Positions 638 to 5,217 of a DNA stretch of 5,217 nt are shown here, piece by piece. The notes beneath the pieces were generated by a model, which did no database searches, was not told where the DNA came from, and worked only from the letters and a program-made list of their open reading frames with translations. The position numbers and the translations under genes were made by a program. Every line of letters starts with the position of its first letter. The stretch's first letter is position 1. This DNA comes from Deltaproteobacteria bacterium (lineage in GTDB: Bacteria > Desulfobacterota > Dissulfuribacteria > Dissulfuribacterales > UBA3076). The DNA lies in NCBI GenBank assembly GCA_013138705.1, contig WTCF01000059.1, positions 1-5,217 of the forward strand, given 5' to 3'.

Positions 638-1477
638 ATGATCTATCTTGCCTATGACGGGTCGCTTAATTGTGACTGGGTAGCCCTCTACGGTATTCGT
701 CTTGCGTCCCATACGCCCGAAAAAAGACTGACTCTGGTCCACATTCAGGACGGCAGCGTCTCTCCTGTGCGAGTTGCTGAGAAAATCGAAAAGATCGAGC
801 GAAAATGCAGTGTTCAAGGGATAGAGCTTTGCCGTGAAATCCTTCCGGTAAAAAAGAACGTCTGCCAGTCTCTCCTGGAGGCCATTCCTTACGGCAGGGA
901 CAGCTTCGCCGTGTGCGGAACTCGAATTCGCTCTAAGAGGCGGGCTTTCTTATCAGGGACCATTTCTGAAGAACTCTTCAGGCATAACAAGTTCAATGTA
1001 TTGGCAGTGCGGGTCGTGCAGCCGGGTTTGCTTGCAAACCCCGGCAATTTTTTGATCCCGCTGGCAGGACATCCGAGGGGCTTTCAATCTGCCTGGCCCT
1101 TCTTCAGGCTGTTTCTGCCCGAAGTGGAAGAAGTCTACCTCCTGCGGGTTATGACCGTGAGTTCTTTTCAGCTTCACCAAATCTCTGGACAACGTATTCA
1201 GATACTGCGCAAAAAGGGGTTGAAATACCTTAGCACTGTTGTGCAGAACATTAAGCAAGGATGCGGGTCTGCCAGGTTCCGGCTGGACTGTCGTGTCGTA
1301 GTAAGTAACGACTGGCCAAGAGAAATTCTTGTCCACAGTAGCAAGTTGAAGACGCATATGATCCTACTTGGCGCATCGGAGCGAACCCGGCTTGGCCATG
1401 CCGTCTGCGCGAATTCGCTGGAGCGGATCCTGCGAGGAACACCATGTGATATAGGGATCTACAGGGGCTATGAGTAA
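638..1477 (+). CDS. Tandem-domain universal stress protein (UspA family)
   Basis: A soluble cytoplasmic protein of 279 residues with two Usp-like Rossmann domains. Domain 1 (about 1-127) opens with IYLAYDGS, where D7 sits at the usual adenine-contacting Asp, followed by LVHI at 33-36. It ends with a nucleotide-loop-like segment G94-x2-I97-x9-G107-T108. The spacing of the family motif G-x2-G-x9-G(S/T) is intact, but Ile replaces the second Gly. Domain 2 (about 137-275) begins FLIPLAGHPRGFQSA and ends with ILLGAS then LERILRGTPCDIGIYR. It keeps G245 but has E248 and A258 where the loop glycines should be, so nucleotide binding there is doubtful. No in-frame ATG, GTG or TTG lies between the upstream stop (590-592) and ATG 638. 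The nearest ribosome site, GGAG 619-622, is 15 bases away, which is long. The gene overlaps the ATPase start by 8 bases, so a role in sensing or tuning that pump is a reasonable inference, not shown. Confidence 0.85.
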   Translation: MIYLAYDGSLNCDWVALYGIRLASHTPEKRLTLVHIQDGSVSPVRVAEKIEKIERKCSVQGIELCREILPVKKNVCQSLLEAIPYGRDSFAVCGTRIRSKRRAFLSGTISEELFRHNKFNVLAVRVVQPGLLANPGNFLIPLAGHPRGFQSAWPFFRLFLPEVEEVYLLRVMTVSSFQLHQISGQRIQILRKKGLKYLSTVVQNIKQGCGSARFRLDCRVVVSNDWPREILVHSSKLKTHMILLGASERTRLGHAVCANSLERILRGTPCDIGIYRGYE

Positions 1478-4187
1478 GGCGCGACAGATACAACACGTTA
1501 ACCCTGAAGAAGTCTATGCCTATCTGGAAACCCGGCCGGAGGGTTTAACCCGACATGAGATCGAAGAACGGCTGCTGGAAGTTGGCAAGAACACTGTGGA
1601 AGTAATCGACAGATGGAAATGGGCCAGTACCTTCATAAAACAGTTTACCAATTTCTTTACCATTCTTCTGAACGTCTCTGCCATAATCTGTTTTGTCGCT
1701 GACAATATAGAACCGGGCGAGAGTATGGATGTGTTGGGTTGGGCACTGCTCGGAGTATCCTTTCTGAATGCTCTTTTCAGTTTTATACAGGAATATCGCG
1801 CCGAAAAGGCGATGGAGGCCCTGAAGAAATTTCTGCCTCCCCGCGTATGGGTCAGGCGAGAGGGAAAGAATGTCGAAATTCTTGCCGAAGACCTGGTTCC
1901 GGGAGACATTCTCATTGTATCAGAAGGCGACCGTATTGCCGCCGACGGCCGATTGGTCAAATGTGACGATCTGGTAGTAAACAACGCTCCTCTTACCGGA
2001 GAATCCAAGGCCCAAAGCCTTAAGGAGTCGGCAGTAGACGAACGTATGGCCGAAAGCGAAAACATCGTTTTTGCCGGATGTTCAGTCCTCAAGGGTAGCG
2101 GCGAGGCAGTGATCTTTGCGACCGGTCTTCGGACAGAGTTCGGCAAACTGGCACATCTTTCTCAGGCCATCCAAAGGAGTCCGTCTCCCCTGGAGCGCGA
2201 GACAGGCCGCATGGTAAGAGTCCTGACCGTTATTGCGGTCAGCATGGGATTTTCGTTTTTTCTCTACGGGGTTTTCAGCGGACGATCCCTATGGGTAAAC
2301 CTGGTATTCATGATGGGCATTATCGTGGCCAACGTTCCTGAAGGGCTTCTTCCTACATTTACCCTTTCTCTGGCAATCGGTAGCTTGAGGATGGCCAAGA
2401 AGAATGTCCTGGTAAAGGAGCTAAAGGCCGTAGAGGCATTAGGTGCGGTCCATGTGATCTGCACCGACAAAACGGGAACTCTGACTCACAACCAACTGAC
2501 GATTACGCACCTGGGCGATGCCGTTGCGTGCGAAAAGTTACAGGATAAGCGATCGGAGGTCTTTCTGTTGGAGCTTGGCCTCAGCACCTCTGAAGTCCGC
2601 AAACTGGAAAAGGGATTTTCTGGAGATCCTCTCGATGTCGCGGTCGCGAATTCCTACACAGAAAAAAGCGGGGATTTGGCTGATTTTGAAAGAACCATAG
2701 AGAAACATTTTGCCTTCGACGTCGACAAGAGAAGATCTGCCGGTATCTACTCGGCAAATTCTCAGAAACTCTTTGTAGTCAAAGGAGGGTGGGAGGCCAT
2801 ACGCCCGCTTGTTTCCTATATGCAGGTAGGCTTGACAAGGGACCCGGTCGCAGTCGATGAAGAGGCTCTTGACAAGACTGAAGCAGCGATGAGCACGGTG
2901 GCTGCAAAAGGCTTGCGCGTCATTGCCGTGGCTTACCGAGTGCTTGCCCAAGGCGATCATGCAGATGCCAAACAAGAAGACTTGGAGCACAATCTCGTCC
3001 TGGCGGGTTTTCTGGGGATCGAAGACCCCATTCGCAGGGAAGTTCCGCCCGCTGTACAAAAGTGTCGAAGTGCAGGCATCGACGTCATTATGATCACCGG
3101 CGACCATCCGGATACGGCTGTGGCCATTGCTCGTAAGAGCGGCATTATGATAAATGGTCGCAACAAGACAGGGGTTCTCACAGGAGACACACTGGAACAG
3201 TTGAGCCAGAAACAGCTCATAGAGGAACTGGGCAAAGGGGTGTCGGTCTTTGCTCGAACGACTCCTGAGCAGAAAATGAAAATTGTCGCCGCCCTGAAGG
3301 CTATGGACAAAGTCGTGGCCATGACCGGTGACGGGGTGAACGATTCCCCAGCCCTCAAGGCAGCCGACGTTGGTGTCGCCATGGGGAAAAAGGGCACCGA
3401 TGTGGCCCGGGAGTCGGCGCAGATTGTCCTATTGGATGACAATTTCGCCTCCATTGTGGCAGGAGTCGAAGAAGGACGCGCGATCTTCAGCAACATCAAA
3501 AAATTCACCAATTATGTGCTCGTCAGCAACGGACCGGAAATTCTTCCTTATCTTATCTACATCTTGTTGCCTGTTCCTTTGGCCCTGACGGTGATTCAAA
3601 TCCTTTCGATTGATTTGGGAACGGACATTATTCCTTCAATGGGTTTGGGACAGGAGCCGCCCGACCCCGAGGAGATGCGTCGTCCGCCACGGGACCGAAG
3701 CGAGGGTTTGCTTACGCCGCCTCTCATGGTGCACAGTTATTTGTTTCTGGGGTTGCTGGAAGCGCTGTGGTCGATTTTTTTGTTTTTCTACGTCCTGGTG
3801 CAAGGAGGATGGGAATACGGCCAGGAACTTGCGTCAAACGATGCTCTTTACCGCTCGGCGACGGGTATCGTACTGGCCACGATTCTCCTTATGCAGATCG
3901 GCAACCTTCTGGGACGCCGCTCCGTTTATCGTTCAGGCCTGGATAAGGGCATCTTTAAAAACAAACTGATCTTTCTCGGGATTCTTATTCAAATTCTGTT
4001 TTCTTGGGCGGTCTTGTACTTTCCTGCAGTGCAGAAAGTATTGGCCACAGGGCCTGTTCCCGGAAAGGTCTACTTTCTGGCCTGGTTCGGTATCCCTCTG
4101 ATTTTTGGTCTCGATTACGTTCGCAAAAAGATTGCGCAACTGCTACGTCCGGCTCCGGAACTTCAGCCAAGCGCGCCCAAGGCTTAA
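1470..4187 (+). CDS. Cation-transporting P-type ATPase, type IIC (Na,K/H,K-ATPase alpha-like)
   Basis: A complete 905-residue inner-membrane pump that couples ATP hydrolysis, through an aspartyl-phosphate, to cation exchange. Order: N-terminal cation-ATPase domain (about 8-50), TM1-2 (about 60-108), actuator domain with TGES 176-179, TM3-4 (about 249-303) with VPEGLL 289-294, P-domain DKTGTLT with phosphorylated D333, nucleotide domain (KRRSAG from 420, KGG 438-440), TGDHPD 543-548, TGDGVNDSP 619-627, then TM5-10 (about 680-885). VANVPEGLL, SNGPE (686-690) and IDLGTD (714-719) match animal Na,K-ATPase rather than SERCA. E291, N687, E690, D715 and D719 fall on its E327, N776, E779, D804 and D808. 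Site III differs: V685 for T774 and Q841 for E954, the latter as in H,K-ATPase. A Pro/Ala-rich tail ends the protein. No beta subunit is seen. ATG 1470 lies inside the upstream gene's end (ATGAGTAA), implying coupled translation; AGGGG 1463-1467 may help. Na+ or H+ export against K+ is likely; the exact ions are not certain. Confidence 0.93.
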   Translation: MSKARQIQHVNPEEVYAYLETRPEGLTRHEIEERLLEVGKNTVEVIDRWKWASTFIKQFTNFFTILLNVSAIICFVADNIEPGESMDVLGWALLGVSFLNALFSFIQEYRAEKAMEALKKFLPPRVWVRREGKNVEILAEDLVPGDILIVSEGDRIAADGRLVKCDDLVVNNAPLTGESKAQSLKESAVDERMAESENIVFAGCSVLKGSGEAVIFATGLRTEFGKLAHLSQAIQRSPSPLERETGRMVRVLTVIAVSMGFSFFLYGVFSGRSLWVNLVFMMGIIVANVPEGLLPTFTLSLAIGSLRMAKKNVLVKELKAVEALGAVHVICTDKTGTLTHNQLTITHLGDAVACEKLQDKRSEVFLLELGLSTSEVRKLEKGFSGDPLDVAVANSYTEKSGDLADFERTIEKHFAFDVDKRRSAGIYSANSQKLFVVKGGWEAIRPLVSYMQVGLTRDPVAVDEEALDKTEAAMSTVAAKGLRVIAVAYRVLAQGDHADAKQEDLEHNLVLAGFLGIEDPIRREVPPAVQKCRSAGIDVIMITGDHPDTAVAIARKSGIMINGRNKTGVLTGDTLEQLSQKQLIEELGKGVSVFARTTPEQKMKIVAALKAMDKVVAMTGDGVNDSPALKAADVGVAMGKKGTDVARESAQIVLLDDNFASIVAGVEEGRAIFSNIKKFTNYVLVSNGPEILPYLIYILLPVPLALTVIQILSIDLGTDIIPSMGLGQEPPDPEEMRRPPRDRSEGLLTPPLMVHSYLFLGLLEALWSIFLFFYVLVQGGWEYGQELASNDALYRSATGIVLATILLMQIGNLLGRRSVYRSGLDKGIFKNKLIFLGILIQILFSWAVLYFPAVQKVLATGPVPGKVYFLAWFGIPLIFGLDYVRKKIAQLLRPAPELQPSAPKA

Positions 4188-4195
4188 ATAGCCAC

Positions 4196-4225
4196 TTGAC
4201 TCATGAGCATCCTTTGTGCTACATC
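4196..4225 (+). promoter_or_regulatory. Candidate sigma70-type promoter for pyrB
   Basis: TTGACT at 4196-4201 is a good -35 match and starts 8 bases past the ATPase stop. With an 18-base spacer the -10 would be TACATC (4220-4225), a weak match with three consensus bases. Transcription would start near 4230-4233, placing the leader ORF start at 4233 or 4242 and the terminator about 55 bases into the RNA. The strong -35 and the position fit an attenuated pyr leader, but the poor -10 keeps this tentative. Read-through from the ATPase operon is also possible, since no other terminator lies between the genes. Confidence 0.35.
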
Positions 4226-4325
4226 CAACATTATGAAAGCAATGCTTGTTCGTGACAAAATATTTTGGCATACACGCCATACACTGCCTCCTTTTTTCCA
4301 AAAAGGAGGCTTTTTTTTGGCATGA
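4203..4325 (+). CDS. Candidate pyrB attenuator leader peptide (27-40 aa)
   Basis: ATG 4203 opens 40 codons to TGA 4323-4325; ATGs at 4233 and 4242 in the same frame give 30 or 27 codons. The 4242 start is the best fit to the predicted transcript and has a weak GAAAG five bases before it. The frame passes through the whole terminator hairpin and T-tract, which encode the ending PPFFQKGGFFLA. Its stop overlaps the pyrB ATG as ATGA. In enteric pyrBI, a 44-codon leader ORF also runs through the attenuator. Ribosomes close behind a UTP-starved, paused polymerase stop the terminator from folding, so pyrB is expressed when pyrimidines are short. The same logic fits here, with T-rich ATATTTTGG (4260-4268) about 18 bases before the stem as a possible pause region. 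The geometry is seen; the mechanism is inferred. No strong ribosome site is visible for any of the three starts. Confidence 0.5.
   Translation: MSILCATSNIMKAMLVRDKIFWHTRHTLPPFFQKGGFFLA
4286..4318 (+). terminator. Intrinsic terminator/attenuator upstream of pyrB
   Basis: GCCTCCTTTTT (4286-4296) and AAAAAGGAGGC (4300-4310) form a perfect 11-bp stem with a TCC loop (4297-4299), followed directly by eight Ts (4311-4318). This is a strong factor-independent terminator. It lies only 3 bases before the pyrB ATG, so it must act as an attenuator for pyrB. It probably also ends transcripts coming from the ATPase operon, which has no other terminator. Confidence 0.88.
4303..4309 (+). promoter_or_regulatory. 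pyrB Shine-Dalgarno inside the terminator stem
   Basis: AAGGAGG is the only ribosome-binding sequence before pyrB; the bases from 4311 to the ATG are a T-run plus GGC. It lies 12 bases from the ATG, longer than the usual 5-9, and is fully paired with the CCTCCTT side of the terminator stem. A folded hairpin would therefore block both transcription and initiation at pyrB. Alternatively, pyrB may be translated mainly by coupling from the leader ORF through the ATGA overlap. Confidence 0.5.
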
Positions 4326-5217
4326 ATCGCTTTACTGCCCGACACATATTAGGAATATCCACCCTTTCACCGGACGAAATCAATTTCATTCTGGATACTG
4401 CCGAGTCTCTCAAAGATATCCTTGAAAGACCCATTAAGAAAGTACCACCGCTCCGCGGCAAAACCGTAGTTCATCTCTTCTTTGAACCAAGCACCCGGAC
4501 TCGCCTCTCATTCGAGCTGGCAGCCAAGCGATTGAGCGCGGACACGGTGTCAATTTCAGCCAAGGCCAGCAGTGTTGTAAAAGGGGAAACCCTTATTGAT
4601 ACCGCACGAAACATCGAGGCAATGAAGCCTGATGTCATAGTCATGCGTCACCCCCATTCAGGGACTCCTCACCTGCTCACAAAATACGTTAACTCGGCTG
4701 TAATCAACGCTGGAGATGGTACAAACGAGCATCCCTCCCAGGCCCTGCTGGACATCTTTACCGTAAGGGAACACCTGGGGCATATTGAAAATTTAAAAGT
4801 TGCCATACTGGGAGATATCCTTCACAGCAGAGTAGCTCACTCAGACATACTGGCCTTTACAAAGATGGGCGCGGAGGTGGTTGTGTCAGGGCCTGCCACC
4901 ATGCTTCCTTCGCATCAATCCGAAGTCCTCGGGGCAAAAGTGGTCCTGAAGATGGAAGATGCCTTAGAGGATGCGGATGTAATAATAGTCCTCAGGATTC
5001 AAAAGGAACGTCAGGGACAGAGCCTTATTCCTTCTGTAAGAGAGTATGCAATGTTCTTCGGCCTCAGCCCTGACAAGGTCAAGTTGGCCAAATCAGGGGC
5101 CTTGATCATGCACCCCGGACCTATCAATCGTGGAGTAGAGATGGCACCGGAGGTGGCAGATGGGCCATACTCCGTAATCCTGGATCAGGTGACAAATGGA
5201 GTGGCGATAAGAATGGC
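4322..5217 (+). CDS. pyrB: Aspartate carbamoyltransferase catalytic chain, 3'-truncated by window end
   Basis: It catalyses carbamoyl phosphate + L-aspartate to N-carbamoyl-L-aspartate, the committed step of pyrimidine synthesis, as a cytoplasmic trimer. There are 298 codons visible with no stop; family members are near 305-315 residues, so perhaps 10-15 residues are missing. The carbamoyl-phosphate domain has FEPSTRTRLSFE with S57-T58-R59-T60, the mobile-loop Ser/Lys in ASSVVKGET (S83/S84, K87), R109-H110, and HPSQALLD (137-144). The aspartate domain has GDILHSR (164-170), LRIQKERQ (224-231) with R225, and HPGPINRGVE (264-273). The last is the Bacillus/Aquifex-type form, not the E. coli HPLP form, and is typical of enzymes encoded next to a dihydroorotase gene, which may follow off-window. 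ATG 4322 matches the usual family N-terminus (RHILGISTLS). Upstream in-frame codons would translate the terminator. Expression is probably set by the attenuator hairpin directly before it. Confidence 0.95.
   Translation, partial: MNRFTARHILGISTLSPDEINFILDTAESLKDILERPIKKVPPLRGKTVVHLFFEPSTRTRLSFELAAKRLSADTVSISAKASSVVKGETLIDTARNIEAMKPDVIVMRHPHSGTPHLLTKYVNSAVINAGDGTNEHPSQALLDIFTVREHLGHIENLKVAILGDILHSRVAHSDILAFTKMGAEVVVSGPATMLPSHQSEVLGAKVVLKMEDALEDADVIIVLRIQKERQGQSLIPSVREYAMFFGLSPDKVKLAKSGALIMHPGPINRGVEMAPEVADGPYSVILDQVTNGVAIRM

Follow-up and report, generated by a model that had tools for sequence, protein, structure and literature searches.

The window (the entire analysed stretch of 5,217 nucleotides), from an uncultured bacterium of the sulfate-reducer type, ends within pyrB, the gene for the catalytic subunit of aspartate carbamoyltransferase, which is preceded by a Usp-domain gene of the universal-stress type and by a P-type cation ATPase gene (Table 1). 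The pyrB product scores above the cut-offs of the NCBIfam profiles NF002032 (389 bits) and TIGR00670 (312 bits), and both Pfam OTCace_N and OTCace are matched in it. The start of the ATPase gene is overlapped by the end of the Usp-domain gene, and the two likely form one operon.

The gap between the ATPase gene and pyrB contains, in order, a TTGACT hexamer, 18 nucleotides of spacer, a TACATC hexamer, a short leader open reading frame (ORF), a hairpin with its T8 tract and the ATG of pyrB, with 11 nt separating the hairpin stem from the gene. The preliminary description of this DNA had drawn attention to the hairpin, the T8 tract and the overlap of the leader TGA (4323-4325) with the pyrB ATG beginning at 4322, and all of these are present. 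No other of the nine terminator-like sites in this DNA has so long a stem (shuffle mean 5.0), and the 47-nt fold of the hairpin has an energy of -15.5 kcal/mol (z-score -2.84). The AGGAGG motif in its 3' arm is the sole evident ribosome site of pyrB.

Table 1. Genes and sequence elements of the window
Feature	Position	Strand	Basis or remark
Usp-domain gene (universal-stress-type)	638-1477		Pfam Usp
P-type cation ATPase gene	1470-4187		ORF list and family search
-35 element TTGACT of the predicted pyrB promoter	4196..4201	+	identity to relatives
-10 element TACATC	4220..4225	+	TG at 4217-4218, 18-nt spacer; read from the sequence
Leader ORF, 30 residues, predicted leaderless or nearly so	4233..4325	+	ATG kept in 12/12 aligned loci
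Intrinsic terminator hairpin, 11-bp stem, 3-nt loop	4286..4310	+	terminator scan, folding
U6 run, 5' arm and loop	4292..4297	+	candidate UTP-sensitive pause
AGGAGG, pyrB Shine-Dalgarno	4304..4309	+	hairpin 3' arm, 12 nt before ATG
T8 tract of the terminator	4311..4318	+	
pyrB, aspartate carbamoyltransferase catalytic subunit	4322..5217	+	3' end beyond the window

The leader frame, its promoter and the hairpin in related genomes

The class of genome G002 is represented in this analysis by 46 genomes, and pyrB loci were obtained from 21 of them and then from 22 of the remaining 25; we take this class to be Dissulfuribacteria and its phylum Desulfobacterota. Groups within the class were sorted by eye. 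Eighteen loci that combine their own promoter with the hairpin were classed as leader-type (the window, L001-L009, L015, L017-L020, L075, L077 and L089), and 12 of these form the aligned set (the window, L001-L009, L015 and L075). The ATG at 4233 is invariant throughout the aligned set, and in all 12 loci the frame stays open up to a stop at the start of pyrB; in L075 a +1 and a -1 indel cancel in the alignment. The earlier statement that a leader frame runs through the terminator directly before pyrB and ends on the pyrB start is thereby borne out.

The same layout emerges when the start codon is chosen without regard to frame, as the ATG lying 33-43 nt past TTGAC (TGGAC in L020). Such an ATG is found in 17/18 leader-type loci, and 15 of the 17 resulting ORFs pass through the hairpin and stop at the pyrB start, the exceptions being L018, where the ORF stops just before the hairpin, and L019, where it stops inside. 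L017 has no ATG at this distance; its in-frame ATG 71 nt before pyrB likewise leads to a stop on the pyrB start. Among the 15 loci the distance from ATG to pyrB is 89 nt (12 loci), 83 nt (L077 and L089) or 119 nt (L020), and the -35 element stands 37-40 nt before the ATG. In L077, a GC-rich locus whose pyrB begins with GTG, the overlap is retained as GTGA.

Stops before the hairpin occur in the leader frame in none of 16 loci, and in the other two forward frames in 15/16 and 6/16, the second forward frame being burdened with stops because most leaders begin ATGA. The shuffle product of this open-frame count over 11 chosen loci is 9.8e-5. The count used picked in-frame ATGs, which makes its mod-3 result partly circular; with ATGs selected by position alone that result was obtained again. 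For L007 the stop count covers 29 of 54 nt, the whole L007 frame being open, and for L089, which has two usable starts at -83 and -71, the latter was used. A side observation concerns L009 (660-680), where ATA stands in place of the pyrB ATG and the leader stop there is TAA; a possible TTG start lies six bases upstream of the ATA, or a base may be in error.

The encoded peptide appears less constrained than the frame. Among the seven closest leaders substitutions number 12, 9 and 13 at the three codon positions, and this spread suggests that the openness of the frame is kept rather than the peptide; the class leader alignment has neither visible conservation of peptide sequence nor a conserved codon run. 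Of what the preliminary description had proposed to look for in an alignment of relatives, the frame, the hairpin and the overlap are kept, and a synonymous substitution pattern is not seen.

The predicted promoter is recognized by its conservation. Identity to the window in 11 relatives is 0.58-1.0 over the promoter and 0.44-0.64 over the 45 nt lying 5' of it (10 relatives, L003 being too short); in the closer relatives conservation begins at the -35 element, and in L007 the promoter is not distinct from its flank. The TTGACT/TACATC pair was absent from the output of a generic promoter scan of the window. A search for TTGAC followed 17-18 nt later by any hexamer, itself 4-13 nt before an ATG, found such a promoter near the leader ATG in 16/18 class loci versus 5/29 other loci, and before 21 of 793 single ATGs upstream of the other pyrB loci (the last figure counts ATGs, the former two count loci). 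A spacer of 18 nt gave the top score in the 16/18 class loci with the promoter. As the ATG follows the -10 hexamer by 7-10 nt in the 12 loci with an ATG at -89, the 5' UTR would measure roughly 0-4 nt. Transcription is predicted to start at about 4230-4233, and the leader mRNA is probably leaderless or nearly so. A precedent is Sinorhizobium meliloti trpL, whose transcript begins at the AUG (PMC7298713). Other loci of the phylum that look leaderless are L104, L165, L167, L171 and L182.

The preliminary description had placed the leader start at 4203, which would give a 40-residue ORF (4203-4325). We rejected this ATG (4203..4205, + strand), as it lies inside the promoter between the -35 and -10 elements. 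Its equivalent is an in-frame ATG in the window, L001, L004 and L005 among 16 loci, and a GTG in L006. The ATG 89 nt upstream of pyrB (4233 in the window) occurs in 12 of the 16, and because it is the start conserved at one place the leader is taken to be 4233-4325.

The consensus fold of the 12 aligned loci (RNAalifold) comprises the terminator stem, with 10 pairs, and a weak helix of four pairs around it, each of which is unformed in up to two of the 12 rows; no structure competing with the terminator appears in this consensus. Folded singly, the window sequence forms an outer helix other than the four-pair helix of the consensus. The outermost pair of the stem is G-C in nine loci, G-U in two and A-U in one. 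A run of 5-7 T lies in the 5' arm in 12/12 loci of the window's group. Since the leader-type loci L017, L077 and L020 have only 3, 2 and 1 T there, a U-run is not common to all leader-type loci. In the window's group the sequence preceding the hairpin has a T content of 19-36% and no conserved U-rich tract. A pattern of the hairpin run against 395 genomes of the phylum gave hits in 15, which lay at pyrB in six (G002, G010, G011, G015, G023 and G083) and at sites judged by eye to be unrelated in the remaining nine.

The same kind of hairpin, at the same kind of distance from pyrB, also exists without a leader. Relatives that keep the hairpin without the leader frame had been named in advance as what would refute attenuation, and 11 loci are of this kind (L010, L011, L016, L039, L079-L084 and L087), with no ATG ORF entering the hairpin and 3 T in the arm in each. 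Their hairpin lies 14-21 nt past the stop of the upstream gene, which leaves no room for a promoter. In L011 the upstream gene is porB (NF008819, 411 bits, cut-off 405), and the others look similar by eye. In these porB-type loci the terminator lies directly against pyrB and apparently provides the ribosome site of that gene as well. The arrangement may represent the ancestral state, in which the terminator of a gene later became an attenuator, or it may be a loss.

Recurrence of the layout in the phylum

An even sampling of the phylum gave 198 genomes, in 156 of which pyrB passed the threshold applied, and 148 upstream regions were examined (L204, cut by a contig end, is among those left out). 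A terminator lies within 130 nt upstream of pyrB in 34/148, and a pyrR-like motif, by which we mean a motif match within 320 nt rather than the outcome of a family search, lies upstream in 55/148. The two occur together in 0/148 (hypergeometric P 8e-9), an exclusion that is partly expected because an operon needs no internal terminator.

An ORF beginning with ATG enters the hairpin in 32 of the 34 terminator loci, passing through it in 21 and ending inside it in 11, versus 17.9 expected from shuffles of the 100 nt upstream (P 4.5e-8), and it stops at the pyrB start in 14/34 versus 5.1 expected (P 6e-5). These P values ignore relatedness among the 34 loci. With one locus per similarity cluster (14 clusters), an ORF enters the hairpin in 12/14 versus 7.4 expected (P 0.007) and stops at the pyrB start in 4/14 versus 1.6 expected, the latter being marginal (P 0.05). 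No ORF enters the terminator in L094 and L151. E. coli pyrL, used as a control, was detected by the same script.

The clear cases include L140, L152, L154, L156 and L162, with an ATGA overlap, leaders starting M-x-W and a purine-rich ribosome site; L144, L177 and L201, with a GTGA overlap; and L132, where the stop falls 1 nt before GTG. A TTGA overlap in L139 was read by eye, its hairpin having been missed by the script. The leader ends in the hairpin in L104, L125-L128, L143, L160, L165 and L167. Similar leader-terminator layouts thus recur in Desulfobacterota, in keeping with the wider distribution that had been put forward as one of two options. A literature search covering a minority of the subscription papers listed no study of pyrB leaders from this phylum.

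Proposed ribosome-coupled attenuation and the competing explanations

Enteric pyrB is a textbook case of UTP-sensitive, ribosome-coupled attenuation. At the locus described here, promoter-like elements, a leader frame, a hairpin and a stop-start overlap are seen in the sequence, together with their conservation and recurrence. A translated leader running through a terminator is the most likely interpretation of this arrangement, with the attenuator working like pyrBI as a variant of that design. In its full form, with pyrB under a translation-coupled transcription attenuator and UTP as the likely signal, the proposal seems to us reasonably probable on the strength of comparative sequence analysis.

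The mechanism would run as follows. RNA polymerase would start at about 4230-4233, nearly at the leader AUG. A ribosome following closely would cover the 5' arm of the hairpin as it emerges, so that no terminator forms and transcription proceeds into pyrB. The same ribosome would free the pyrB Shine-Dalgarno sequence held in the 3' arm, and it could restart at pyrB because the leader UGA overlaps the pyrB AUG. Should the polymerase outrun the ribosome, the hairpin would form and transcription would end; untranslated readthrough RNA might still be silent, since the ribosome site of pyrB lies inside the terminator. Leaderless initiation, termination and its suppression by the ribosome are thus steps that we infer, as is UTP sensing. 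The likely signal would be the UTP level, which would set the pace of the polymerase and slow it where the template calls for many U, the U6 run being a candidate pause site; this step is suggested by analogy with the enteric system and by the U-run of the window's own group.

In E. coli the pyrL terminator is suppressed by the coupled ribosome when UTP is limiting and the polymerase is slowed (PMC10135430 and PMC5021804). Also in E. coli, the efficiency of a terminator dropped from about 90% to <10% when the stop codon was shifted to 5 bp upstream of it (PMC4824070). Judged by these measurements, stops less than about 27 nt away, such as those of the genes upstream in the porB-type loci, may still reduce termination there. 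The same paper finds that terminators near the beginning of a coding region evade ribosomes unless the polymerase pauses, and the scheme proposed here would need such a pause.

Several observations count against an attenuator. The peptide is not visibly selected, the hairpin stands without a leader in 11 relatives, and no ORF enters the terminator of L094 or L151. There is no conserved U-rich tract ahead of the hairpin in the window's group, the U-run is absent in three leader-type loci, the overlap reaches only P 0.05 across clusters, and PyrR is encoded in 19/21 genomes.

The same coupled attenuator might respond, by way of its leaderless start, to general translation capacity or to ribosome supply and not to UTP. 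We regard this as unlikely, though deserving of some weight. It is consistent with the concentration of the leaderless-making TTGAC promoter in the class (16/18 loci versus 5/29 others), with the lack of a conserved U-rich tract before the hairpin and with the three leader-type loci that have no U-run. The U5-U7 run in 12 loci argues against it, however, as does the fact that pyrimidine-linked sensing is a known logic at pyrB. Nor were terminators found at other pyrimidine genes of the same genomes: among 17 leader-type genomes, a terminator lies upstream of carA in 0/13 read and upstream of pyrE in 0/15 read, with about 100 nt before the pyrE start covered because the match begins inside the gene.

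Alternatively, the leader might act by translational coupling only, bringing ribosomes to pyrB and opening its Shine-Dalgarno sequence, with termination playing a minor part. The AGGAGG in the 3' arm and the stop-start overlap would fit such a role, and reinitiation at leader genes has been proposed as general (PMC4833913). Yet several loci stop the leader in or before the hairpin, away from pyrB, and keep the hairpin and the T-tract all the same, which makes this explanation improbable.

Control of the terminator by PyrR or another RNA-binding protein is more doubtful still. A PyrR protein scores above the NF003549 cut-off in 19/21 related genomes, but its RNA element RF00515 was found in 0/46 class genomes by a search with stricter filters that mostly scored about 59 candidates per genome and in which the controls Bacillus subtilis, Thermus and Lactococcus were positive. 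Rfam returned nothing over the gathering threshold for 19 loci, and for the window, at E up to 1, two weak unrelated matches and no RF00515; the aligned loci, moreover, have no competing conserved structure. In the eight loci fetched (L115-L122) pyrR is not adjacent to pyrB. Its neighbour there, as searches in L120 and L115 respectively indicate, is pdxA or a birA-pdxA ORF, and for this reason PyrR may have no function beyond that of a uracil phosphoribosyltransferase.

It is hardly credible that the hairpin simply terminates the upstream gene and that the ORF is there by chance. A hairpin of this kind does follow a gene, with no leader, in eleven relatives, and shuffled sequence gives an ORF into the hairpin about half the time (17.9/34). 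This explanation is opposed by the conserved promoter upstream of the hairpin, the mere 11 nt between stem and pyrB, the fixed ATG and frame, and the lack of such terminators at carA and pyrE. The least credible alternative is slippage, or reiterative transcription on T-runs, altering the leader-pyrB frame or the initial transcript: a one-base gain in T8 would fuse the two frames, but the kept stop-start overlap and its recurrence at other spacings would be left unexplained.

Relation to known attenuators

Like E. coli pyrBI, the attenuator proposed here stands directly before pyrB and has a leader ORF that traverses an intrinsic terminator, with a T8 tract in both cases. The leader of the window is shorter (30 residues versus 44 for pyrL), and its stop overlaps the pyrB start, whereas the pyrL stop lies 3 nt before pyrB in strain MG1655. 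It is predicted to be leaderless, in contrast to pyrL with its GGGAGG before the start, and the ribosome site of pyrB lies within the terminator, unlike that of pyrBI. No conserved U-rich tract lies ahead of the hairpin in the window's group, where a U5-U7 run stands inside the 5' arm. The regulatory subunit PyrI (TIGR00240), for which E. coli was among the positive controls, was found in 0/46 class genomes, and in the relative locus L005 the gene downstream of pyrB is pyrC. Comparison of the leader with pyrL yielded no BLASTP alignment at E up to 100, the sequences being short. The characterization of the leader as unrelated to pyrL is supported, and since PyrI was not found and no leader kinship was detected, we file the system as one working like pyrBI and not as a member of the enteric family.

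Two other kinds of attenuator invite comparison. The PyrR attenuators (RF00515) similarly place a terminator before a pyr gene, and PyrR is encoded in most of these genomes; the element itself was found in none of the 46, and here the leader frame runs through the terminator. The trp/his-type attenuators, S. meliloti trpL included, share the short leader ORF. They differ from the present case, in which no alternative hairpin and no conserved peptide or codon run is seen and the ORF passes through the terminator.

A wider proposal can be made tentatively, and we would not hold it with confidence: that leader-coupled attenuation is a main control of pyrB in those Desulfobacterota lineages that have no pyrR-pyrB operon, and that it arose apart from the enteric system. 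In the window's class the terminator might then have become both attenuator and ribosome site of pyrB, with a single ribosome on the leaderless leader lifting both locks. The layout could be a widespread means of tuning pyrimidine production, as predicted from sequence. If so, the appearance of the same anatomy in another phylum, with unrelated sequences, would mark it as a recurrent solution.

The loci would also provide a natural series of variants for tests of ribosome-polymerase cooperation, in which the stop lies after, within or before the hairpin, the leader is leaderless or not, and the ribosome site falls inside or outside the terminator. A coupled leader of the leaderless kind would raise the question of how its mRNA could recruit a ribosome in time to reach the polymerase within about 60 nt. 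The peptide itself may matter in one part of this series: the leaders of L140, L152, L154, L156 and L162 have a common M-x-W-(V/F) start and mostly EGVFF (GGFF in L156). Such shared motifs, which the leaders of the window's class do not show, may mark a role in sensing or pausing.
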